From Solirubrobacteraceae bacterium (GTDB lineage: Bacteria > Actinomycetota > Thermoleophilia > Solirubrobacterales > Solirubrobacteraceae): 38,939 nucleotides of DNA. This document shows, piece by piece, positions 22,744 through 36,980 of this stretch. The position numbers and the translations under genes are program-made. Position 1 is the stretch's first letter. Each line of letters begins with the position of its first letter. The stretch is from contig JADGPL010000027.1 in assembly GCA_017882455.1 (NCBI GenBank), forward strand, positions 1 to 38,939, given 5' to 3'. The notes under the pieces were generated by a model that did not search any database, was not told the DNA's origin, and worked only from the letters and a program-made list of their open reading frames with translations.

Positions 22744-23586
22744 TCAGAGCTCCACGGTGGTGCCCTCGGATGCGACGCTCACGGGGGTGGCGGTGTGCGC
22801 GAACCGGCGCGCCAGCCCGTCGAGCGCCTCGTCGCTGCGGTCGGGGCGGTGATGGAAGAGGGCGACCGAGCGCACCCCGGCGCGCTCGGCCAGCGCGACC
22901 GCGTAGTCGGCGACAGCGTGGCCGAAGGCGGCGTCGGCGGCGAGCTCCTCGGGGAACAGCTGGGCGTCGTGCACGAGCAGGTCTGCGCCGCTCACGAGCT
23001 CGATCGCGGCCGCGTGGTACTCGCCGAACCCGTCCTCGCCGGGACCGAGGGCGGTGGGACAGTGGTCGGGTAGGTATGCGAGCGTGGAGCGGCCGTCGCT
23101 GATGCGGTAGCCGAACGTGCGCCCGCCCTTGTGGGGGATCTCGCGGGCGAGCACGCTGAACCCCTCGATCGAGCGCTCGCCCGGGGCGATCAGCCCGAAG
23201 CGCCAGGTCCCGCGCAGATCGCCGGGTCCGATCGGAAAGTAGGGCGGGCGCATGATCGCGCCCAGGATCTCCTCGGCGTCCTCACCTCCAGGCTGCTCGG
23301 GCAGAAGCACCTCCACGTGCGCGTCCTCGCGGTCGCCGGCGGCGAAGAAGGGCAGGCCGAGCACGTGGTCCCAATGCAGGTGGGTGAGCAGGATGGCGCC
23401 CCCGAAGGCCGCGCCGCCGAGCAGCGCGGTGGCCTTCGTGAGGCCGACTCCGGCGTCGAGGATCAGAGCAGGGCTCGTGGCCTCGGCGCGCGTGAGAGCC
23501 AGGCACGGGGTGTGACCGCCGTAGCGGACGAAGTCGATTCCTGGCGCCGGGGTCGATCCCCGCACCCCGCAGAAATGCACCTGCAA
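22744..23586 (-). CDS. MBL-fold metallo-hydrolase
   Basis: This 280-residue enzyme of the metallo-beta-lactamase fold opens MQVHFCGVRGSTPAPG with YGGHTPCLAL, the pattern of the RNase Z / cyclic phosphate phosphodiesterase-like (Lactamase_B_2) group. The metal motif HLHWDH is at about residue 70, followed by Asp in YLPDHCP, His/Asp in LLVHDAQLF and the C-terminal FHHRPDRSDEALD. The reaction is likely phosphodiester hydrolysis, but the substrate cannot be told. TTG 23586 gives the family start; GTG 23580 is an alternative. It begins 5 bases after the stop of a cyclic-nucleotide-binding protein gene on the same strand, so the two form an operon, and a cyclic nucleotide as ligand or substrate is an attractive inference. 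Confidence 0.88.
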   Translation of the reverse strand: MQVHFCGVRGSTPAPGIDFVRYGGHTPCLALTRAEATSPALILDAGVGLTKATALLGGAAFGGAILLTHLHWDHVLGLPFFAAGDREDAHVEVLLPEQPGGEDAEEILGAIMRPPYFPIGPGDLRGTWRFGLIAPGERSIEGFSVLAREIPHKGGRTFGYRISDGRSTLAYLPDHCPTALGPGEDGFGEYHAAAIELVSGADLLVHDAQLFPEELAADAAFGHAVADYAVALAERAGVRSVALFHHRPDRSDEALDGLARRFAHTATPVSVASEGTTVEL

Positions 23587-23591
23587 GCGGC

Positions 23592-24605
23592 TCAGCCCCG
23601 GTCGGGCTCGGTCCGGCGGTGGTCCTTGGAGAGCTCCTGTAGCGAGGAGCGGTCGAGCTGGTCGGCCTCCACGGCGGCCACCCTGCAGGGAGTGACCGCC
23701 ACGAGCGTGGAGGTGCGTCCCCTGCCGTCGAGGTGCGCCCTCTCGCCCAGCAGGGCGCCGGGACCGTACTCGGCGAGCCTGCGGCCGTCCTCCTCCACGC
23801 GCAGCACCCCGTCGAGCAGCAGAAAGACCTCGGAGCCGGCTTCGCCCTGGTTGACCAGGGCCGTGCCGGCCTTGATCTTGCGGATCGCGGGCTTCGCCCC
23901 GCCCTGCATGATCTGCGCCGAGAGCGTGCGCTCGAGCGCACTCTCCACGGCGGTGACGAGCGCCGCCGAGTCGGTGTCCCCCCAGGGGGTGTGACGTCCG
24001 AAGGACTTGCGATACCAGTCCTTGAAGTCGGCCAGTCCGGACTTGTGCGAGAGCTCGCCGGCATGGTCGTAGATCCAGTGGCGGGGAAAGCGGCTCGCGC
24101 CGGTCAGCGCGCCCTTGACCCTGCCGTCGGCGTGGATCGTGAGCGAGAGCGTGGTCCACACGAGCGGAGCCTGCCACTGCACGAAGGGCTTGCGCCGCAC
24201 CCGCCGCGGGGCGGGCACGCCCGTGCGCCCCCCGGCGGTCTGGGTGAAGCGGACCCAACCGTCGCCCTGCACGGGGTCGGGCGCGAGGTCGGGCAGCCCG
24301 ATCGCCTCGAACGTGCGCGTCAGCGGGCCGACCTTGACCGACGTGGCCCCCATCAGGCCGCCGCCGTCGCGGCCGAAGCCGGTGATGCTCCCCGCGTCGT
24401 CGACCTCGACCCAGGCGCTCAGCACGTTGGCGAAGCGGAAGCGATCCTGAGCGCGCAGCTCCTCGAGATCCTCGATCGCTTCGGGCGGCGGCTCGTCGTA
24501 GTGGGCGAGGCCGGCCTCGAAGGCGAGCCGCGTCGATCCTTCGACCGCCTCTGAGGGGATCCACGAAAGCGACGTGATCGAGCTCTGGTGGCGCAAGGCG
24601 CCCAT
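23592..24605 (-). CDS. Cyclic-nucleotide-binding domain protein with unknown N-terminal region
   Basis: This is a 337-residue cytosolic protein. The C-terminal CRP-type domain, about residues 240-330, has IKAGTALVNQGEAGSEVFLL, LDGVLRVEEDGRRLAEYGPG and ALLGERAHLDGRGRTSTLVA, including the Glu and Arg of the phosphate-binding cassette. The first 240 residues are not recognised. They contain VRFTQTAGGRTGVPAPRRVR, ALVWTT-like strands and FPRHWIYDHAGELSHKSGLA with WGDTDSAALVTAVE, and show no helix-turn-helix, so this is not a typical CRP regulator. ATG 24605. The next gene downstream is the MBL-fold hydrolase 5 bases on. The same ligand class may feed the CNBD of the transporter-lipase fusion at 32346-35702. 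Confidence 0.85.
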   Translation of the reverse strand: MGALRHQSSITSLSWIPSEAVEGSTRLAFEAGLAHYDEPPPEAIEDLEELRAQDRFRFANVLSAWVEVDDAGSITGFGRDGGGLMGATSVKVGPLTRTFEAIGLPDLAPDPVQGDGWVRFTQTAGGRTGVPAPRRVRRKPFVQWQAPLVWTTLSLTIHADGRVKGALTGASRFPRHWIYDHAGELSHKSGLADFKDWYRKSFGRHTPWGDTDSAALVTAVESALERTLSAQIMQGGAKPAIRKIKAGTALVNQGEAGSEVFLLLDGVLRVEEDGRRLAEYGPGALLGERAHLDGRGRTSTLVAVTPCRVAAVEADQLDRSSLQELSKDHRRTEPDRG

Positions 24606-26265: not shown

Positions 26266-28146
26266 CTACACCCCCGAGCCGGCCTGAGGCTCGGGTTCCG
26301 CGGGTTCCGCGGCCGGAGCCGGCGCGGAGGGCATGCGCCCGGAAGGCGTATCGGCAGGCTCGCCCCGGGCGCTCTCTGGCTCCACGACGGTCCACACGGG
26401 GACAGGGGCGACGCGCCCGCGAACCTCGAGCTCGCCGACGAGCGTGAGGGTGTCGGGCGGGTCGTGCAGCCGCTCACGGGTGCTGTCGGCGATGAAGAGC
26501 ATGTGTCCGCTGCCCTTGGTCATGCCCTCCAGGCGCGAGGCGGTGTTTGTGGTGTCGCCCAGGGCGGTGTACTCGACGCGCTGCTCTGAGCCGATGTTGC
26601 CGGCCATGACCGGGCCGCTGTTGATTCCCACGCCCATCACGAAGGCGTGGTCGTGGCCCTGCTCGGCCAGCCACGAGTTGAAGCGCTCGAGCCTTGGCCC
26701 GATCATCTCGGTGGCGGCGGCCAGCGCCCGGTCGGCGTGGTCGGACTGCGCGAGCGGAGCGCCGAAGACGGCCATGATGCCGTCGCCCATGTATGAGATC
26801 AGGGTGCCGCCCGCGCCGAGGATCGCCTCGGTCATCTCGTTGAGGTAGCAGTTGACGACCTCGATCACCCGTGGCGCCGGCTGTGTCTCGGAGAAGCTGG
26901 TGAACCCGCGCAGGTCGGAGAACAGCACCGAGCAGTCGCGTTCCACGGCCCCCAGCCTGAGGTTGTCACCGGCGCTGGCGACCACCTGGTCGACGACGTC
27001 CGCGGGGACGAAGCGCGCGAACAGGTCGTGCACACGCGCCCGTTCGATCGTCTCGCCCACATAGAGGACGGCGAGCGTGCCCAGGGTCCCGAGGGCCAGG
27101 GCCAGGAGCGGATAGACGAACGCCAGGATCCTGCCGCTGTCGAAGGCGATCTGGGTGGCGACCGTGAAGACGATTGCGAGCCCGGCGGCGTCGAGCAGCG
27201 AGCGCCACCGGCGCACGCGCATGCTGCCGAGTGGGACCGCGCACCCCAGCAGAGCGATCAAGCCGATGTCGAGCCATCCCGGAACGCCTCGGAGCGGTAC
27301 ACCCTGCAGCAGCGTCGCCGCCGCGTTGGCCCAGATTTCCGGGCCGGGCATGGTGCCACCGCTCGTGGGGGTGGCGTGGAGGTCTTGGAGGATCGGCGAA
27401 GACGCCCCGACGATGGCGAGCTTGCCGCGAAAGAGGCTCGCTGGGAATTCACCTTTCAAGACCCTCGCGTAGGAGATCGACCTGAAGGTTTCGGAGGGTC
27501 CCGCATAGTCGATGGGGAGGGTGCCGTGTTCGAATGTCGAGGCGGCGATCTTGTGCCCAGTCATCGCTTCGGCTGCCACCACCGGCAAGCTGCCCAAGTG
27601 GTTGTACTCACGGGCAACGCGCCGAACAGAGCCGTCCGTGTCGAGCGTGAGTCGCACCTCCGACGGCCTTACGCCGATTTCCCGGAGAAGCGCCGGCGCG
27701 CCACCAAAGATGGCTGTGCCGCCGTCTCTGGTGACGTTGACAGTGCCAAGGATCACTTTGCCATGGGCACGGCCGATCGCTTCGATCAGCGCGTCGTCCT
27801 GTTCAGGCGTCGTTTCGTGGGTGAATTCCATGTCCATCGCGATCGCTCGTGCGCCGGCCCCCCTGAGTCGGTCGACAACTTCCGCGTCGTACCTGCGTGG
27901 CAGAGGAGACCGAGACTTGAGGTGGTGCGCTTCGAGTTCCTGTTCGGCGGCCAGGCTGATCGCCACGAAGACGATGTTCGACGGCGGCTTGTGGCTGCCC
28001 CGGATCGAGAACCGTGCGTCGATCGTCTGCAGTTCGGTGCGCCTCAGCAGATGAGTTGCGTACGCGAGCACGCCGATGCCGCCTGCAACCGCGGCGACCG
28101 CCAGCAGCGCCACGACCTTGCGCCGCTGTCTGTGCGCCCCGCCCAT
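26266..28146 (-). CDS. CHASE2-domain class III nucleotide cyclase
   Basis: This is a 626-residue membrane protein. One N-terminal helix (VVALLAVAAVAGGIGVLAYA) is followed by an extracellular CHASE2 sensor (about 40-285), three membrane helices (WLDIGLIALLGCAVPLG; DAAGLAIVFTVATQIAF; FVYPLLALALGTLGTLAVLY) and a cytoplasmic cyclase domain (about 395-575). The metal Asp residues are in VLFSDLRGFTSF and YMGDGIMAVFG, and the transition-state Asn and Arg in GDTTNTASRLEG. The substrate-selecting position normally Asp is Thr (YTALGD), as in class IIIb adenylyl cyclases. The usual Lys three residues before GD is Ser (ISYMGD), which is atypical. The Pro/Glu-rich tail is low-complexity. It likely makes cAMP in response to an external signal. 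ATG 28146 lies at the edge of a 12-base inverted repeat. Confidence 0.92.
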   Translation of the reverse strand: MGGAHRQRRKVVALLAVAAVAGGIGVLAYATHLLRRTELQTIDARFSIRGSHKPPSNIVFVAISLAAEQELEAHHLKSRSPLPRRYDAEVVDRLRGAGARAIAMDMEFTHETTPEQDDALIEAIGRAHGKVILGTVNVTRDGGTAIFGGAPALLREIGVRPSEVRLTLDTDGSVRRVAREYNHLGSLPVVAAEAMTGHKIAASTFEHGTLPIDYAGPSETFRSISYARVLKGEFPASLFRGKLAIVGASSPILQDLHATPTSGGTMPGPEIWANAAATLLQGVPLRGVPGWLDIGLIALLGCAVPLGSMRVRRWRSLLDAAGLAIVFTVATQIAFDSGRILAFVYPLLALALGTLGTLAVLYVGETIERARVHDLFARFVPADVVDQVVASAGDNLRLGAVERDCSVLFSDLRGFTSFSETQPAPRVIEVVNCYLNEMTEAILGAGGTLISYMGDGIMAVFGAPLAQSDHADRALAAATEMIGPRLERFNSWLAEQGHDHAFVMGVGINSGPVMAGNIGSEQRVEYTALGDTTNTASRLEGMTKGSGHMLFIADSTRERLHDPPDTLTLVGELEVRGRVAPVPVWTVVEPESARGEPADTPSGRMPSAPAPAAEPAEPEPQAGSGV

Positions 28147-28208: not shown

Positions 28209-28349
28209 GCGAGGCGGGCCGGCTACGCGCCAGCGGCGTATGCCGGCGTCGCGCGCGCCACCATGCCGGCTCGCCGTATGTAAAGTCCGACATTCGGGCG
28301 GGGTGGTCGGTCTCGGCGTGAGCGTCCTCGTCGCCCTGGGGTGCCCAGA

Positions 28350-31301
28350 ATGAGCTCAGCGGCAAGCATCTCGACGGCGGGAGTCGGTGGTCGCACCGGC
28401 GGGAGAGTCGGCGGCCTGTTGCCGGTCGTCGTGCTCGTGCTCGTGCTCGCCGGGGTGTGGTTGTCGTTTCCCGTCCAGGCGAGCGCCTCGGTGGAAAGCG
28501 GCGCGCTCTCGCAGCTTCCGTCGCCGGCGAACTGCGTCGGCGACACCGAAGAAGGAGTGATGGCGCTGTGCGGCACCGGCGTCGGCAGCGGGCTCCAGCT
28601 CACCTACCAGACAGCCGTCAGCCCCGACGGCGCCAACGTCTACTCCGTCGCCCACGGAGGGGCGCTGATCGAGTACTCGCGGAACCCCGCCAGCGGCGCT
28701 CTCGCGGTGATCGGCTGCATAACCGGCCTCACCTCGTCACCGACCGACTCCTGCGCGCCGACGAACGCCCAGTACGGCGTCACCGTCGTCGAAAGCCTCG
28801 GCGCGATCGCGATCAGCCCGAACGGCAAGAACGTCTACGTCCTCGATCAGGGCAAGAACATGGTCGTCGAGCTCAGCCGCGATACGGAAACGGGCCTGCT
28901 CGCGGTCATGAAAGGGGCGGGAGGCGAACCGGAATGCATCACCGAGGAAGCGTCGCTGTGTGAACACACAAACGCCATCGGACTGAGCAACCCGTACGGC
29001 ATCGCAGTGAGCCTCGACGAAGAAACCGTCTATGTCGCGAGCCTCGGCAGCGAATCGGTCGCCGAGCTCGCGCGCGACACCTCCACGGGCACGCTCGAAG
29101 CGATCGCCGGGCACGAATGCATCGGGGGCCCGGGAAGCGGTTGCCCGGAAAACACGGCGATCGGTGTCGCGAACGCGATCGGCGTCGTCGTGAGCCCCGA
29201 CGGCAAAGACGTCTACGTGGCCGCCGGCGCGAAAGGCGAAGAAGGAGACGTGGCGTCCTTCAAACGCGGTGCCGGCGGGGTGCTGGAACAGCTGGCCGGC
29301 GAAGAAGGCTGTGTCAGCGAAAAGATCGTCGTGTGCGCCAAAGTCAAAGCGCTGCAGGGTTCCGAGGACCTGGCGATCAGTCCGGATGGAAAGGACGTGT
29401 ATGCGACCTCCTATCCGACGAACGCGATCGTCGAGCTCAAACGCGAAGCCACCGGCGTCCTCACCCAACTCGGCGGCAGCAATGGCTGCGTCACCACGAA
29501 TTCGATCGCCGGCTGCACCGAAGCCACGGACATCAGCGGTCCGCTGGGAGTCGCCGTCAGCCCGGATGGGGCCAACCTCTACGCGAGCGGCTCCTCCAGC
29601 AACGCCGAGGCGGCGTTCGCCCGCAACGCCTCCACGGGCGCACTCACGCAGCTCGGCGAAGCAGACCCCTGCGTGACATCCGAAGCCTCCGGCTGCGGCG
29701 CTGAATTCAACAACGCGATCGGGCTCGACGGCGCTCGTCGCGTCGCGGTCTCACCCGACGGCACCAACGTCTATGTGGCCGGCCAGAGCTCCAACGCGCT
29801 CGTCGAGCTCGCGCGCACGGTGAAACCGACCGCCACCGACGTGCAGCCCAAAGAAGGCTCCGAAGCGGGCGGTGAACAGGTGACGATCAAAGGCGCGGGC
29901 TTCGCCGAAGGCGCCCAGGTCCTGTTCGGGACCACGCCCGCCGTGAGCGTGACCGTGAACTCGGCCACATCGATCACCGCCGTCAGCCCGGCCGAAAGCG
30001 TGGGTCCGCAGAACGTCGAGGTCGTCAATGCCGCCGGCGAATCCGAAGTGGAACCCGTCAAAGCCAAATTCGCATTCACCCTCGCCACGACGCCGACCGT
30101 CTCCGGGCTGTCGGCGTCGTACGGACCCCAGGCGGGTGGAACGATCGTCCAGATCACCGGCAGCGAATTCCTCGCGGGCTCCAGCACGGTGAGGTTCGCC
30201 AGCACGCCCGCGACGAACGTCACGGTCAACTCGGGCGCCTCGATCACCGCGACCGCTCCAGCCGGGAGCGGCATCGTGGACGTGACGGTCACCACGTCGA
30301 AGGGGACGTCGGCCACAAGCGGCGGCGACCGCTTCAAATACAACTTCACGCCCCCGCACAAGCTCGGCGGACTCGACACCACGGGCTATTGCGTGAGCCT
30401 CGGCGATCACGGGACCGAAGGAGCTCCCGCGAAACTGCTCAAGGGAGCCGTCGAAGGCCCTGAATTTGCGTTCAACAACTGGGCCTGCGAAACGAACACG
30501 GGCACGCTCGTGCCGATCGCCTCCGCCGGGCCGGCGCCCAGCGAGAACGACATGTGCCATCACGAATACCCCAACGTGTCCTCGTTCGCGTTCGCCGAAG
30601 AAGCCAACAGCGCGTTCAGCTGGGCCTGCTACGAAACCGAACCCACGCCCGAACAGCACGCGAGCACCACGACGACCACAGCAACCACGGCGACCACGGC
30701 GACCACGAAATCCACTCCCGCGGTCCTGGCGCCGCCAACGCTGTCGAGGACCGGCAACGTGGCCCCGATCTCGGGCAGGGTCATGGTGCGTCTGCCCGGC
30801 ACCAGGACCTTCCTCCCCCTTTCCTCCCTGCGCCAGATCCCCTTCGGGACGGTCATCGACGCCACCAACGGCAGGGTGGTCGTGACCACCGCCCTGCCCC
30901 ACGGCGGAACCCAGACCGGCGAATTCTTCAGCGGCGAGTTCGTGCTCACCCAGGGCCGGGATGGCACGGTCGTGGCGACATTGACCGGGGGCGACTTCGC
31001 GGTCTGCCCGACCGCGCGCGAGCGTGCGCACCGGGCGCGCGTGAGCTCCTACCGGGCTTTCTCCAGCTCGACCTCGGGCAAGCATGTCGTGCGCAAGCTG
31101 TGGGCCAACGCGCATGGCAAGTTCTCGACCAAGGGCAACTACGCGGCCGGCGCGGTGCAGGGCACCGAATGGCTGACCGAGGATCTCTGTGAAGGCACGT
31201 CGATCCGGGTCACGCGGGACAAGGTCCTCGTCACCGATCTCGTCCGCCACCGCCACAAAACGGTGAAGGTCGGCCACAGCTACCTCGCCAAGGCGCCCTA
31301 G
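28350..31301 (+). CDS. Large secreted beta-propeller/IPT protein with C-terminal surface module
   Basis: This 983-residue protein starts at ATG 28350 (GTG 28341 is an alternative) and has a signal peptide with the core LLPVVVLVLVLAGVWLSF. Residues about 60-490 are YVTN-like repeats (AVSPDGANVYSV, AISPNGKNVYVL, VVSPDGKDVYVA, AISPDGKDVYAT, AVSPDGTNVYVA), six or seven blades. Two IPT/TIG domains follow (about 491-578 and 580-666: GTTPAVSVTVNSATSITAVS, FASTPATNVTVNSGASITAT). A Cys-bearing segment comes next, then a Thr-rich linker (about 770-790) and a C-terminal module from about 807 (ISGRVMVRLPGTRTF to KVGHSYLAKAP), shared with the next gene. Codons are unusually rich in GAA and AAA for this window. 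It is probably a surface or matrix protein; ligand unknown. Confidence 0.88.
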   Translation: MSSAASISTAGVGGRTGGRVGGLLPVVVLVLVLAGVWLSFPVQASASVESGALSQLPSPANCVGDTEEGVMALCGTGVGSGLQLTYQTAVSPDGANVYSVAHGGALIEYSRNPASGALAVIGCITGLTSSPTDSCAPTNAQYGVTVVESLGAIAISPNGKNVYVLDQGKNMVVELSRDTETGLLAVMKGAGGEPECITEEASLCEHTNAIGLSNPYGIAVSLDEETVYVASLGSESVAELARDTSTGTLEAIAGHECIGGPGSGCPENTAIGVANAIGVVVSPDGKDVYVAAGAKGEEGDVASFKRGAGGVLEQLAGEEGCVSEKIVVCAKVKALQGSEDLAISPDGKDVYATSYPTNAIVELKREATGVLTQLGGSNGCVTTNSIAGCTEATDISGPLGVAVSPDGANLYASGSSSNAEAAFARNASTGALTQLGEADPCVTSEASGCGAEFNNAIGLDGARRVAVSPDGTNVYVAGQSSNALVELARTVKPTATDVQPKEGSEAGGEQVTIKGAGFAEGAQVLFGTTPAVSVTVNSATSITAVSPAESVGPQNVEVVNAAGESEVEPVKAKFAFTLATTPTVSGLSASYGPQAGGTIVQITGSEFLAGSSTVRFASTPATNVTVNSGASITATAPAGSGIVDVTVTTSKGTSATSGGDRFKYNFTPPHKLGGLDTTGYCVSLGDHGTEGAPAKLLKGAVEGPEFAFNNWACETNTGTLVPIASAGPAPSENDMCHHEYPNVSSFAFAEEANSAFSWACYETEPTPEQHASTTTTTATTATTATTKSTPAVLAPPTLSRTGNVAPISGRVMVRLPGTRTFLPLSSLRQIPFGTVIDATNGRVVVTTALPHGGTQTGEFFSGEFVLTQGRDGTVVATLTGGDFAVCPTARERAHRARVSSYRAFSSSTSGKHVVRKLWANAHGKFSTKGNYAAGAVQGTEWLTEDLCEGTSIRVTRDKVLVTDLVRHRHKTVKVGHSYLAKAP
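31080..31301 (+). repeat. 3' module duplicated at 32083-32304
   Basis: The last 220 or so bases of the gene 28350-31301 are nearly the same as the last 220 of the gene 31354-32304. They share long identical runs, such as the stretch encoding KFSTKGNYAAGAVQGTEWLT, and differ mainly at third positions. Similarity at protein level extends upstream to about 30769 and 31798. A recent duplication or gene conversion is indicated. Confidence 0.85.
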
Positions 31302-31353
31302 GCTCCACGCCTCCCACTTGCGCTACTTGGCCGCCAGGAGGATCCCCGCAGCG

Positions 31354-32304
31354 ATGGCACTCCTCGGCGCGGTGCTCGTGCTCGTGGTCGTGCTGCTCGT
31401 GAGTGCCGCGGGTGGCGCGTCAGCATCGGCGCTGAACCTGTCCGGGACGTGGTCGGCCAGCTACCACTGCGAAGCCGGTGGGTGCGCCGGGAGCGACTTC
31501 CCGGCCACCGACACCCTCAGCCAGGCTGAAGGCTCGAGCGCGGTCACGGGCAGCAACGGTGGCGAAGCCATCACGGGCACGCTGACCGGCAACGCGTTCG
31601 CCTACCGCAGCTCGGTCGGCGGCTACAGCGCCGAAGGCACGCTCACGATCGCCCCCGACGGGCTCTCGTGGTCGGGCCATGTCCACGACAGCAACGGGAC
31701 CAGCGGCACCTACACTGCGACGCGCGCCTCCGCGCCAGCACCCGCGCCGGCCTCCTCACCAAAGCTGGGCGTCTCGGCAGGCCTGATTGCCGCGTCGGGC
31801 GTCGTGCTCGTCCGGGCCAAGGGGTCGAGCGCATTCGCGCCGCTGTCCTCGCAGAGCGTCCTTGCGCTCGGAGCCACCGTCGACGCGACCCACGGGCGCG
31901 TCGTGGTGACGACGGCGGCGCCCCATGGCGGCACGCAGACGGGTGAGTTCTTCGAAGGCGAGTTCGTGCTGACGCAGGCACGCAACGGCATCGTCAGCGC
32001 GACGCTCGCCGGGGGCAGCTACGCGCCCTGCCCGACCGCCCGCGAGCGTGCGCATCGGGCGCGTGTGAGCTCGGCTGGGGGCAAGCAGGTCGTGCGCAAG
32101 CTGTGGGCCAATGCGCACGGGAAGTTCTCGACCAAGGGCAACTATGCGGCCGGCGCGGTGCAGGGCACCGAATGGCTGACCGAGGATCTGTGCGAAGGCA
32201 CGTTGATCCGGGTGACGCGTGACAAGGTCAAGGTCACCGATCTCGTGCGGCACCGCAGCCGGACGGTGAAGGTCGGCCACAGCTATCTCGCCAAGGCGCC
32301 CTGA
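31354..32304 (+). CDS. Secreted protein sharing the C-terminal module of its neighbour
   Basis: This 316-residue protein starts at ATG 31354, with AGGAGG 12 bases upstream. A TTG at 31318 would give a signal peptide with a better basic start (MRYLAARRIPAAM) and is a fair alternative. After the signal core (LVLVVVLLVSAAGG) an N-terminal beta-rich domain of about 100 residues (LNLSGTWSASYHCEAGG, TGTLTGNAFAYRSSVGG, TIAPDGLSWSGHVHDSNGTS) is joined by an Ala/Pro linker to the module found in the preceding protein (about 149-316). The module opens like a FecR domain (ATVDATHGRVVVTTAAPHGG) and ends AGAVQGTEWLTEDLCEGTLI to SYLAKAP. The gap to the previous gene is only about 50 bases, so an operon is likely. 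Confidence 0.88.
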   Translation: MALLGAVLVLVVVLLVSAAGGASASALNLSGTWSASYHCEAGGCAGSDFPATDTLSQAEGSSAVTGSNGGEAITGTLTGNAFAYRSSVGGYSAEGTLTIAPDGLSWSGHVHDSNGTSGTYTATRASAPAPAPASSPKLGVSAGLIAASGVVLVRAKGSSAFAPLSSQSVLALGATVDATHGRVVVTTAAPHGGTQTGEFFEGEFVLTQARNGIVSATLAGGSYAPCPTARERAHRARVSSAGGKQVVRKLWANAHGKFSTKGNYAAGAVQGTEWLTEDLCEGTLIRVTRDKVKVTDLVRHRSRTVKVGHSYLAKAP

Positions 32305-32345: not shown

Positions 32346-35300
32346 TCAGACGCGTATAACGGTGCGACGGCCCGCCAGATCCCCGCCCACCGACTGTGTT
32401 CGCGACAGCCAGGCCGGTGGCTCGCCCTCGAGAGCCGCGATAGCGGCGCGACGGCCCGCCGCGCGCGCCTCGTCGATCTGGTGGAACTCCAGCAGGCCGA
32501 CTCCGGAGACCCGCACGCGGATCGTCATGTCGGCGAGGCGGCGAGCGGACTCGTCGGTGTTGGCGCTGCTCAGCAGCGCGATGCGGGCCATCGTCTCGGG
32601 CAGCGAGGGCAGGCGCCGGCGGCGCGGGCGCTTGGCCGCGCCACGCTCGACGGACGTGCCCTCATCCGGTGTGCTCGCGGCTCGCGTGCGTTCTTCGCCA
32701 CCCTTGATGTCCACGGCTAGGACCGGCCCCTCGCCGCTCGAGCTCATCGGCGCCAGCGGCAGATTGTCGAGCAGCGAGCCGTCGATCAGGATGCCCTCGC
32801 CGCGACGCATCGGCGGCGCGATCAGCGGCAACGAGATGCTTGCGCCCACCGCGAGCGCCATCGGCCCGCTGCGGTCGATCACCAGACGGTTGCCGCGCAG
32901 GTTCACGCTCGCGCAGTAGTACGGCCGGCCCAGCTCCTCGACCTGGAGCTCGCCGAATACCCGCTCGAGCATCGCCTCGGCCTTGTGGCCCTTGATCAGC
33001 GCCGATCGCGGAACCGTGTAGTCGTTGATCGGGTTGCGACGCACCCACTCCTCGTAGCAGCAGGCGTCCATCGCGGCGCTGTCGTGACCGCAGGCGAGCA
33101 GGCCGCCGATGAACGAGCCCATGCTCACACCGCCCACGCGGTCGACCACCATGCCCGCGTCCAGGAGCACCTCGAGCACGCCCAGATGCGCGAACGCCCG
33201 AGCTCCACCGCCGCTGAGCACCACGCCCACGGCTCGCCCGCAGAGCCTGCGCGCAGTGCGCGCCAGATCGCGCCGGCGCGTGGGCGAGGCGACGGCGAAC
33301 ACGCTCGCCGGCGCGAGCAGCTCGAGCCAAGGGGCGAGGGTTGCGGAGCCGGCCCTGACCTCGAGCGCCAGCAGATCCGACCCGCGCAGGGCGCCCAGCG
33401 CATCCGAGGCCGGGTCCGGAGCGACGCCTGCCTCGACCGCCACCAGGACGCGGTCGGCGCGCGATCGGCAGAACTCGTTCCACTGGCTCGCGGCCCCCTC
33501 GGGCCCCGCCACCATGATCACCTGGTCGTGTTCCTGCTCGCAGGCCTCCACCAGCGGGGCGAATCTCGCGATCGCCTCTGCCGTCGTGGCGGGTCCCTCC
33601 CCGGAGGCTCCATCCGCCCCTGGATAGAGCACCGCCACCTTGCCCCACGCGCACATCTCGCGACTCAGCTCGTGGGCCAGCTCGAGCAGCTCGACGCCCT
33701 CGGTGGCCGCGCACAGCGCGATCGTCACCGGCCGTGCGCGTCGTGCGACCGGCAGGGCACGGCTCGCCTGCAGCTGGGAGCTGAGCACGCGCGTGAGGCT
33801 GAGAGCCAGCTCGGGCTCGGATCGCAGCAGCGCCTGGAAGCTCGCCGCCTCGATCCGCAGCAGCTCCGTGTCTCGCAACGCGCGCACCGAGGCGCTGCGC
33901 CGGGATTCGCTCAGCAGCGCAAGCTCGCCCAACACAGCACCGCGCGTCAGCGTGTTGATCGCTTCCGGCTTGCTGCGCTCCTGGACCACCTCCAGGTGCC
34001 CCACGCGCACCACGTACACCCCGTCGGCCTCCTCGCCTTCGCGAAACAGCCACTGTCCGCGCTCCAGCCGCACGCTGTCGGCGATGCCCGCTATCTCCTC
34101 GAGCATCTGCTCCGAGAGCCCGGCGAAGACCGGAACGTTGCGCAGGAACTCCGCAACCGATTGGGGCTCGCCCTGTGCACGCTCGCCCTGCGTGTCCGTG
34201 AGGCTCGGAAGCTCCGCCTCCATCAGCCCTTCGGCGGACTCGGGCGCCTCCGGCGCCTGGAGCGCCACGCCGACCCCCGCCGGCGCCTCTTCCGCGCGCT
34301 TGACCACCAGCCCGAGACACGCCACCGATCCCGTCAGGAAGCATGCGCCCGCGAACCACCAGCCGTGCTCGAAGGCGTGCAGCGCCTGCAGCCGGCCGGG
34401 GTTGCCCACGATCGCGATCAGGATCGCCACTCCGATCGCCGCTCCGAGCTGGCGCGCAACCGAGTTCAGCGAGGTGGCCACCGCGAAGCGCGGTCCCGGG
34501 ACCGATCCCACCGCAGCGCCGCTCAGCGTCGGGAAGCTCAGCCCGGCCCCGATCCCCAGGATCACCATCCCGGGCAGCCAGCCGGTGAGGAAGTCCGCCT
34601 TCACCCCCAGCGTCTCCGCGAAGTAGGCCATGCCACCGGCCCAGATCAGCGCGCCCGGGACCACCACGGCGCGATGTCCGACGCGTTCGACCAACCGGCT
34701 CGCCGGGCCTGCCACGGCCATGGCGGTGAACGGCCCCGGCGTCAGAGCCAGCCCGGCCGTGAGGATCGAGTAGTGCCACACCCCGGTCAGGAACAGGACG
34801 TTGCAGAGCGTGTACGCGTAGAAGCCGCCGGCCATCACCACGGTTACGCCGTTCGAGAGCGCGAACGCACGGATGCGCATCAGCGAAAGATCGATCACAG
34901 GTGCGCGATGGCGAGCGGCGCGCAGCGTGAAGTACACGCCGAGCAGGATCGCCACTGCGAACGCACCAATAATTCGACCGTTCGACCAACCCCATTCCTG
35001 ACCCTTGACCACGGCGAGCACCAACGAGGCGATGGCCAGCGCCAACACGGCGCCCCCGAGGAGATCCGGCATGCGCCGGCGACCTGGCGCGCGACTCTCC
35101 ACGAGCACCCGCTGGGCCAACACGAACGCCGCCAGGCCCACCGGCACGTTCACGAGGAACACCAGCCGCCAGTTGGACGCGGTGATCAGCAGGCCGCCGA
35201 GCGGGGGGCCGATGCCGGCGGCGAGCGCCGCGACCGCCGACCACAGCGCCACTGCGTGCATGCGCTCGCTCGCCTCGTGGGCCTCGAGCACGATCGCCAG

Positions 35301-35702
35301 CGAGCTCGGCACGAGCATCGCCGCGCCCGCCGCCTGGATCACCCGCGCGCCCACGAGGAAGCTCAGCGACGGGGAGATCGCGCACAGCGCCGAGGCGAGT
35401 GTGAAGGCGATCAACGCGGCCGAGAACACGCGGCGGCGGCCGAGCAGATCGGCCAGTTGCCCACCCCCCACGAGAAACGCCGCAAACACGACGTTGTAGG
35501 CGTTCAGCACCCACGACACGCTCGACAGGCGTGAGCCCGCGAAGTCGTGGGCGATGTTGGGAACGGCGATGTTCACGATCGTGGCGTCCACGAATGCCAT
35601 GAACGTGCCGAGCACCGCCACCGCCAGCACGACTCTGGGCGAGGAGATGCGTCGCGTCCGCGCTCCCACCGCTGGTGCCGCCAGTGTCCCCGTGCCGCCC
35701 AA
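32346..35702 (-). CDS. MFS transporter - cyclic-nucleotide-binding - patatin lipase fusion
   Basis: This is a 1118-residue protein in one uninterrupted frame. Residues about 25-475 are a 14-helix DHA2 (EmrB/QacA) drug:H+ antiporter: FMAFVDATIVNIAVPNIAHD, GGGQLADLLGRRRVFSAAL (motif A) and LAAGIGPPLGGLLI (motif C). A 40-residue linker leads to a CRP-type domain at about 515-640 (VPVFAGLSEQMLEEIAG, REGEEADGVYVVRVG, GELALLSESRRSASVRAL). An NTE-like intermediate region follows, then a patatin phospholipase at about 822-990. That has the oxyanion loop VLSGGGARAFAHLG, Ser in GGVSMGSFIGG (near 857) and Asp in DGSLLDNLPLAP (near 972). All catalytic and transport motifs are present. TTG 35702 or GTG 35669 could be the start; an internal ATG at 34223 could yield a soluble CNBD-lipase. 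It presumably couples cyclic nucleotide to lipid hydrolysis at the membrane. Confidence 0.9.
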   Translation of the reverse strand: MGGTGTLAAPAVGARTRRISSPRVVLAVAVLGTFMAFVDATIVNIAVPNIAHDFAGSRLSSVSWVLNAYNVVFAAFLVGGGQLADLLGRRRVFSAALIAFTLASALCAISPSLSFLVGARVIQAAGAAMLVPSSLAIVLEAHEASERMHAVALWSAVAALAAGIGPPLGGLLITASNWRLVFLVNVPVGLAAFVLAQRVLVESRAPGRRRMPDLLGGAVLALAIASLVLAVVKGQEWGWSNGRIIGAFAVAILLGVYFTLRAARHRAPVIDLSLMRIRAFALSNGVTVVMAGGFYAYTLCNVLFLTGVWHYSILTAGLALTPGPFTAMAVAGPASRLVERVGHRAVVVPGALIWAGGMAYFAETLGVKADFLTGWLPGMVILGIGAGLSFPTLSGAAVGSVPGPRFAVATSLNSVARQLGAAIGVAILIAIVGNPGRLQALHAFEHGWWFAGACFLTGSVACLGLVVKRAEEAPAGVGVALQAPEAPESAEGLMEAELPSLTDTQGERAQGEPQSVAEFLRNVPVFAGLSEQMLEEIAGIADSVRLERGQWLFREGEEADGVYVVRVGHLEVVQERSKPEAINTLTRGAVLGELALLSESRRSASVRALRDTELLRIEAASFQALLRSEPELALSLTRVLSSQLQASRALPVARRARPVTIALCAATEGVELLELAHELSREMCAWGKVAVLYPGADGASGEGPATTAEAIARFAPLVEACEQEHDQVIMVAGPEGAASQWNEFCRSRADRVLVAVEAGVAPDPASDALGALRGSDLLALEVRAGSATLAPWLELLAPASVFAVASPTRRRDLARTARRLCGRAVGVVLSGGGARAFAHLGVLEVLLDAGMVVDRVGGVSMGSFIGGLLACGHDSAAMDACCYEEWVRRNPINDYTVPRSALIKGHKAEAMLERVFGELQVEELGRPYYCASVNLRGNRLVIDRSGPMALAVGASISLPLIAPPMRRGEGILIDGSLLDNLPLAPMSSSGEGPVLAVDIKGGEERTRAASTPDEGTSVERGAAKRPRRRRLPSLPETMARIALLSSANTDESARRLADMTIRVRVSGVGLLEFHQIDEARAAGRRAAIAALEGEPPAWLSRTQSVGGDLAGRRTVIRV

Positions 35703-35710
35703 GGTGCCGG

Positions 35711-35722
35711 ATTTTATGTCAA
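35711..35722 (-). promoter_or_regulatory. Promoter-like TTGACATAAAAT before the fusion gene
   Basis: On the minus strand the AT-rich 12-mer TTGACATAAAAT lies 9 bases upstream of the TTG start of the fusion gene, a sharp contrast with the GC-rich surroundings. TAAAAT resembles a -10 box; if it is one, transcription would begin within a few bases of the start codon and the mRNA would be leaderless. No -35 at the normal distance is clear. Confidence 0.35.
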
Positions 35723-35732
35723 GGGTGATGGG

Positions 35733-36174
35733 CTAATTGCAGCCGGTGATGCCGCCGTCGAGCGGAATCACCGTACCCGTGACGTATGCGCCGGCCCGCG
35801 AGGCCAGGAACAGGGTCAGGCCGGCGACGTCGTCCGGGTGCCCGATGCGTCCGAGCGGCACCGAGCGCTCGATCGCCTCGCGCGACTCCGGGTCCGCGAG
35901 CGCGAAGGCCATCATCTTGCTCTCGAACGGTCCCGGTGCGATCGCGTTCACCGTGATGTGATCCGAGGCCAGGCGCTTTGCCAGGTGCCTGGTGAGCACA
36001 CTCGCCGAACGCGGCCAGCTCCTGCGCGGTGCCCTGCACGTCTGCGCTCTTGCGCGATGAGACGATCACGCGGGCGCCAGCCTGCACCAGGCCCCTGGCG
36101 ATCATCAGCCCGATGCCGCGCGAGCCTCCCGTCACGAGGGCGCTCTTGCCCGAGACGTCGAACAGCTCGCTCAC
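35733..36174 (-). pseudogene. Short-chain dehydrogenase with internal deletion and frameshift
   Basis: From GTG 36174 the frame gives VSELFDVSGKSALVTGGSRG with IGLMIARGLVQAGARVIVSS and ends near AQELAAFGE, the NAD(P)-binding half of an SDR (TGGSRGIG motif). Another frame resumes at LTRHLAKRLASDHITVNAIA with PGPFESKMMAFALADPES and ends LFLASRAGAYVTGTVIPLDG, the normal C-terminus. About 110-120 residues between them are missing, including the NNAG strand and the catalytic Ser-Tyr-Lys. The joint is at about 35996-36004. The gene starts 2 bases after the enoyl-CoA hydratase stop, so it was the second gene of that operon. It cannot be catalytically active as written. Confidence 0.88.
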
Positions 36175-36176
36175 GC

Positions 36177-36980
36177 TCAGTCCGCGAACTCCGCCGGACG
36201 CTTCTCCAGGAAGGCGCCGATCGCCTCGGGCACGGCCTGGCCGAAGGTGCTCATGATCTGCTGGCGGTCCTCGTACTCGATCGCCGCCTGCTCGGAGGGG
36301 ATCTCCAGGGCCGTCCAGATGCCGCGCTTGGTCAGGCGCACGCCCCACGGCGCCAGCGAGGAGATCTGCTCCGCCGATTCCACCGCGCGCTCGAGCAGCC
36401 GCCCGTCGTTGACCACGTCGGCCACGAGACCGATGCGAAGCGCCTCCTCGGCATCCACCCGGCGGCCGGTCAGCATCAGCTCGTGCGAGCGCGAGGCGCC
36501 GATCAGCCGCGGCAAGAGCCAGCTCGTGCCCATGTCGCAGTTGGACACCCCGATGTTGATGAAGGCCGCCCGGAACACCGCCTCGGGGCTCGCATAGCGG
36601 ATGTCGCAGCCGAGGCTCAGAGCCAGTCCGAAGCCGGCAGCAGGACCGTTGACGGCCGCGATCACCGGCTGCGGCAACGCGCGCAGTGCGAGGATCAGCA
36701 TCGACATGTGCTGTTGGTTGCCCAGGCGGTCGCGCGGTTCGTCGTTGCCGTCATTGCCGGGGGCCGCCCCGTAGCCGTGCAGATCGAGGCCCGCGCAGAA
36801 GCCGCGCCCGGCGCCCGTCAGGATCACCGCGCGGCACGAGCGGTCGGTTGCGATCGAGCGCAGCTGCGCGTGGAGCTCCTCACACAGCTCCGAGGTCATC
36901 GCGTTGAGCTGCTCGGGGCGGTTGAGCGTCAGCCGGCGAACGTGCGGGGCGGGATCCTCGACGAGCAGAAGCGCAGTCAT
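36177..36980 (-). CDS. Enoyl-CoA hydratase/isomerase family protein
   Basis: This is a 267-residue crotonase-fold protein. The CoA-binding oxyanion loops are seen in AVILTGAGRGFCAGLDLHGY and AAVNGPAAGFGLALSLGCDI. The region that carries the two catalytic Glu in true hydratases reads FRAAFINIGVSNCDMGTSWL, where the first Glu position appears to be Asn or Ile and the second Asp. It therefore belongs to EchA-type actinobacterial proteins whose reaction is uncertain. The C-terminus is the usual EAIGAFLEKRPAEF. ATG 36980. An SDR gene, now broken, starts 2 bases after its stop, which suggests beta-oxidation-like or side-chain degradation steps. It is divergent from a PfkB kinase. Confidence 0.93.
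   Translation of the reverse strand: MTALLLVEDPAPHVRRLTLNRPEQLNAMTSELCEELHAQLRSIATDRSCRAVILTGAGRGFCAGLDLHGYGAAPGNDGNDEPRDRLGNQQHMSMLILALRALPQPVIAAVNGPAAGFGLALSLGCDIRYASPEAVFRAAFINIGVSNCDMGTSWLLPRLIGASRSHELMLTGRRVDAEEALRIGLVADVVNDGRLLERAVESAEQISSLAPWGVRLTKRGIWTALEIPSEQAAIEYEDRQQIMSTFGQAVPEAIGAFLEKRPAEFAD

Follow-up and report, generated by a model that had tools for sequence, protein, structure and literature searches.

A fused MFS transporter, CNBD and patatin phospholipase in a Solirubrobacteraceae bacterium, encoded near a CHASE2-cyclase

Mycobacterium tuberculosis has two proteins, Rv3728 and Rv3239c, that we take to share the architecture of the protein described here, i.e., an MFS transporter, a cyclic-nucleotide-binding domain (CNBD) and a patatin phospholipase on one chain. 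Rv3728 has been termed a "probable conserved two domain membrane protein" (PMC3908365) and a hypothetical or putative lipase/esterase (PMC10865251), and both proteins are listed as MFS efflux pumps (PMC6300501, PMC2649132). In the literature, we found no family member that had been assayed biochemically for lipase activity, ligand or transport, and nothing on MFS, CNBD and patatin together or on CHASE2, cyclase and patatin together. A more distant relation is the neuropathy target esterase (NTE) family (PNPLA6/7, Swiss cheese), which, like the unfused bacterial CNBD-patatins, carries a CNBD followed by a patatin domain with a Ser/Asp dyad. Animal NTE proteins are membrane-attached, as is the fusion protein, and have three CNBDs (PMC9025805). 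The likeness to this family that an earlier note on the sequence had pointed out is supported: the CNBD lies upstream of the patatin domain and the dyad is intact; the difference is that NTE and the unfused proteins have one anchoring helix or none, whereas a 14-helix transporter is found here.

The window, by which we mean the whole 38,939-nucleotide stretch that was analysed, encodes the fusion protein in a single minus-strand gene with the following parts:

32346..35702, minus: MFS-CNBD-patatin fusion CDS, 1118 aa, TTG start at 35702
34290..35639, minus: DHA2/EmrB-type MFS domain, residues 22-471, 14 predicted membrane helices (AlphaFold2)
34221..34223, minus: internal ATG (Met494), judged unlikely as a start
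34170..34280, minus: disordered linker, residues 475-511, pLDDT < 50
33759..34157, minus: CRP-type CNBD, residues 516-648, pocket Glu593 and Arg602-Ser603
33288..33728, minus: unnamed alpha/beta domain between CNBD and patatin, residues 659-805 (AlphaFold2)
32403..33230, minus: patatin phospholipase domain, residues 825-1100, Ser860 and Asp974

The earlier note had read a single polypeptide across this region without giving its strand, and the intact 1118-aa frame bears that reading out. TTG 35702 is the listed start; a GTG at codon 12 is an alternative, and the N-terminus has no ATG nearby. Base composition by codon position shows the GC3 > GC1 > GC2 coding signature running unbroken across the linker. 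Among 20 close MFS matches from 14 genomes, 18 sit in continuous fused frames, with linkers similar in length to that of the window protein, and the two unfused ones are extra copies, both in one genome. Gene pairs split at the linker, which the earlier note had named as evidence against a fusion, are absent from these close matches; one genome (G071) does have MFS genes of their own close to a CNBD-patatin, with only 29-32% identity. Because the same continuous frame recurs in relatives with similar linker lengths, a sequencing frameshift is excluded, and the fused relatives together with the codon signature rule out a frameshift or mis-assembly at the linker. The fusion is genuine and no artefact. 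The suggestion that the internal ATG at 34223 could produce the soluble half separately is not supported: the GGG is just 3 nt ahead of the ATG, which is poor spacing, and Met494 falls in the unconserved linker and is missing from most relatives. Both facts make a two-product gene a weak idea.

The domain content agrees with what had been proposed from the letters alone, namely a complete 14-helix MFS antiporter, then a CRP-type domain, then a patatin domain with its dyad. Pfam matches lie above the gathering cut-offs for MFS_1 (2.4e-40), cNMP_binding (6.1e-21, residues 544-628) and Patatin (3.3e-27, residues 827-984), and the NCBIfam model TIGR00711 (efflux_EmrB) is passed with 259 bits against a cut-off of 230.2. 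The AlphaFold2 model, built from 34 aligned sequences, has a pLDDT of 80.8 and a pTM of 0.71, and its 14 helices are predicted ones. In searches with Foldseek and VIA-align, the solved folds nearest to the MFS part include EmrB, lipid-bound EfpA, an Rv1410 homologue and QacA among other MFS transporters, while the best solved fold for the patatin part is the phospholipase PlpD (Z 30.2, rmsd 2.4 over 238 residues). The patatin motifs are GVSMG (Ser860), DG (Asp974) and the oxyanion glycines 831-832; these catalytic residues are invariant across ten aligned fused proteins, as are Glu593 and Arg602-Ser603 of the CNBD and, in the transporter, Asp39 and the antiporter-motif residues G165, P166, G169 and G170. 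The alpha/beta domain at residues 659-805, for which no Pfam match was found, is present in unfused relatives too.

This fusion had been presented as if new and perhaps confined to Thermoleophilia, and neither view survives comparison: it is an old family spread across Actinomycetota, Mycobacterium included. Class- and phylum-wide searches, together with named genomes, turned up about 22 fused frames without interruption, 1060-1237 aa in length, among them those of Mycobacterium simiae (L070), M. angelicum (L069), a Nocardioides MAG, a Phycicoccus and an actinomycete MAG. The M. simiae locus is the same sequence as contig 102 of G669, by which genus g148 is identified. Across 80 named loci, most bacterial CNBD-patatins are unfused, and none of the non-actinobacterial ones has an MFS in the same frame. 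In the tree of MFS parts, the 22 from fused proteins fall into one clade (support 93/95), and eight unfused DHA2 proteins lie outside it; the C-terminal halves of fused proteins also group, with one unfused row placed among them at weak support. On these trees, the simplest account is one fusion event followed by joint inheritance. The spread is patchy, with fused copies in 5 of 60 sampled Mycobacterium genomes and in none of five sampled congeners of the window genome, and the plasmid collection returned no fused copy, its best matches being plain Streptomyces MFS proteins. The architecture is thus an existing, poorly characterised kind that is already in databases; what is new here, and worth following, is its linkage to the FecR-like/CHASE2-cyclase unit described below.

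Two arrangements within the family deserve mention. On one contig (L171, G133 contig 28, 5760-10840, minus), a fused MFS-CNBD-patatin and an unfused CNBD-patatin stand in tandem with abutting frames. Another genome that carries a fused gene (G210) also has two MFS frames (503 and 705 aa; C2:460730-462052 and C1:1907733-1909031) that are 44-45% identical to the fused MFS half and too short for a fusion. They are possible ancestors or fission products.

The cyclase that we propose to supply the ligand, and the two genes that separate it from the fusion gene, are the following:

26266..28146, minus: CHASE2-class III nucleotide cyclase, 626 aa, proposed ligand source
28341..31301, plus: secreted beta-propeller/TIG protein whose C-terminal ~180 aa are a FecR-like domain
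31318..32304, plus: secreted protein of 328 aa, which shares this C-terminal FecR-like domain

All three lie within 6 kb of the fusion gene. The FecR-like domain, a name given by eye as the 328-aa protein has no Pfam match up to E 1, occurs in only two copies in the genome, both of them between the cyclase and the fusion gene. It was found in 11 of 14 tested relatives, and a comparison of positions shows that it adjoins a CHASE2-cyclase in nearly all of those 11. In a genome of the same genus (G288), a FecR-like protein, an unfused CNBD-patatin and, 15 nt on, the CHASE2-cyclase orthologue follow each other on one strand; in G264, a further genome, the cyclase and an unfused CNBD-patatin are convergent neighbours. 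Six genomes from two further genera have a related cyclase, about 55% identical in its catalytic domain, some 4.5 kb from a CNBD-patatin. Counted by genus, over CNBD-patatin genes fused or unfused and with positions entered by hand from search tables, any cyclase lies within 6 kb of a CNBD-patatin in 6 of 18 genera (0.94 expected, P about 1e-4) and the window's cyclase subfamily is linked to one in 4 of 10 (0.074 expected, P about 5e-7); since the 6-kb limit was picked post hoc and related genomes are not independent, these P values are guides. In two genomes with the fusion (G139 and G192), the CHASE2-cyclase is the sole PF00211 match and therefore the likely class III ligand source. Some mycobacterial fused genes adjoin other cyclases: AAA-type directly upstream (L180, L183), FHA-type in convergent orientation (L181, L105) and HAMP-type (L186).

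Some observations speak against the linkage. Two opposite-strand genes intervene between cyclase and fusion gene in the window, so the two do not share an operon; the majority of fused loci lack a neighbouring cyclase, and the tight FecR/cyclase/CNBD-patatin clusters (G288 and G264) hold unfused CNBD-patatins. Over all fused loci, we found no conserved operon partner of the fusion gene.

Further genes were noticed around these loci. Directly upstream of the fusion gene, an SDR-family gene (35719-36190, minus) is broken, with its N- and C-terminal parts in different frames and its middle missing, which is the part that normally carries the Tyr-Lys active site. This remnant is either a pseudogene or a collapsed assembly. 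On the same strand, at 22744-24605, a 337-aa CNBD protein (23592-24605) is followed by a metallo-beta-lactamase-fold protein (22744-23598), and the cyclase/CNBD-patatin cluster of the congener (G288, L209) has next to it a fragment with 71% identity to this CNBD protein. In mycobacteria, proteins that combine an FHA domain with a divergent class III cyclase domain, in which His replaces the usual Lys, adjoin fused and unfused CNBD-patatin genes (L160, 3325-4272; L045, 466-1488; L181, 6077-7192; and L105, 2184-3332, detected only by our in-house cyclase profile).

Adenylyl cyclases have Lys and Asp/Thr at the positions that specify adenine. The window's CHASE2-cyclase retains both metal-binding aspartates; it has Ser at the lysine position, where its kin have Ser, Ala or Cys, and Thr at the aspartate position, while an Emticicia cyclase aligned with them has both Lys and Asp. 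The Ser, together with the Ala or Cys of the kin, suggests an unusual product. Given Ser and Thr at the two adenine-specifying positions, the enzyme may make cAMP or a different product.

We hypothesize that the fusion protein serves a cyclic-nucleotide pathway as its membrane-bound effector and combines lipid hydrolysis with MFS transport, a reading to which we give about an even chance. The secreted FecR-like proteins, together with the CHASE2 domain, would pick up an envelope signal, upon which the CHASE2-cyclase would make a cyclic nucleotide; binding of this nucleotide to the CNBD would relieve inhibition of the patatin domain, which would then cut phospholipid or lysophospholipid at the cytoplasmic leaflet, and the fused MFS would carry the lipid that is formed, or the lipid substrate, to the other side of the membrane in exchange for protons. 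Such a system would serve to remodel or repair the membrane, in analogy to LplT-Aas with hydrolysis replacing re-acylation. Phospholipid hydrolysis probably takes place at the fused MFS, and export probably goes through it. Gating of the lipase beside the pump by a cyclic nucleotide is plausible because CNBD-patatin genes are recurrently linked to nucleotide-cyclase genes, and it is reasonable to keep the earlier picture of a lipase next to a pump gated in this manner. A stronger version, in which a dedicated envelope-sensing circuit, possibly using a nucleotide other than cAMP, makes hydrolysis and transbilayer movement one regulated act, we put forward only tentatively.

The cargo need not be a lipid. 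In a rather unlikely alternative, the MFS is a drug or metabolite efflux pump, with the CNBD-patatin part tuning local membrane composition or pump activity. The TIGR00711 EmrB match fits this, and so do the listing of Rv3728 and Rv3239c among efflux pumps, Rv3728 with rifampicin (PMC6300501, PMC2649132), and the fact that most of the literature treats the mycobacterial members as drug pumps; yet the listing appears to be based on sequence and expression, with no transport assay found in the literature, and the closest folds include the Rv1410 homologue and EfpA, which was seen with three bound lipids and has been proposed to be a lipid flipper (PMC10802681). It is also conceivable that nothing is transported in step with hydrolysis and that the MFS mainly holds an NTE-like lipase at the membrane, be it as an anchor or as a docking module, as NTE itself is held by a single helix (PMC9025805) and bacterial CNBD-patatins mostly do without a transporter. 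We regard this as improbable. The MFS half is the better conserved one (median identity 49% vs 38% for the lipase half, and higher in 21 of 21 relatives), which disfavours a mere anchor and supports a working transporter, in line with the earlier view that a whole transporter has taken the anchor's place; the invariant Asp39 and antiporter-motif residues point the same way.

A role in abortive infection, in which the cyclase fires and the patatin domain damages the membrane as a defence effector akin to CBASS CapV/CapE or Pycsar, would share the logic of cyclase plus CNBD effector; CapE is among the structural matches, and both the CNBD and the cyclase are hit by Pycsar models of PADLOC. These hits, however, extend over no more than the generic domains, CNBD and class III cyclase, the annotated neighbours include no recognised defence genes, the sensor seems extracytoplasmic (CHASE2 and a secreted partner), and the family is old and conserved together with a whole transporter, so that we consider defence very improbable.

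If the effector reading is true, the family would be a clear example from bacteria of one molecule in which a cyclic nucleotide governs both a phospholipase and a secondary transporter, and a chain of cyclase, CNBD, phospholipase and transporter would give it a testable job in membrane lipid turnover. This is of relevance to mycobacteria and other actinobacteria, in which the family is present; its M. tuberculosis members are listed as drug pumps. The fusion family could also serve as a simple bacterial model for the role of CNBDs in neuropathy target esterase.

Finally, the locus can be set against systems that share parts of it. The mycobacterial proteins of M. simiae (L070) and M. angelicum (L069) are the nearest, with the identical three-domain order in one frame, and share with the window protein 48% of residues across the MFS and 46-50% across the patatin domain; our search for secA1/Rv3727 synteny, by which such copies could be assigned to Rv3239c or Rv3728, found none among the few neighbours scanned. 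The window copy adjoins the FecR-like/CHASE2-cyclase pair, whereas near the mycobacterial copies there is either a cyclase of the FHA, HAMP or AAA type or no cyclase at all. BiofilmReg of Burkholderia resembles the window in that a FecR-domain protein is encoded beside a CHASE2 sensor (PMC5192318), but the CHASE2 output there is a histidine kinase and not a cyclase with a phospholipase-transporter effector. In LplT-Aas, an MFS lipid flippase is likewise tied to a lipid enzyme, apparently in one ORF in some bacteria (PMC11416262); Aas, however, re-acylates where patatin hydrolyses, LplT is a different MFS and a CNBD is absent. The sperm Na+/H+ exchanger SLC9C1, which is among the structural matches, also joins a secondary transporter and a CNBD on one chain, but with another transporter fold (TM-score about 0.1) and without a lipase.
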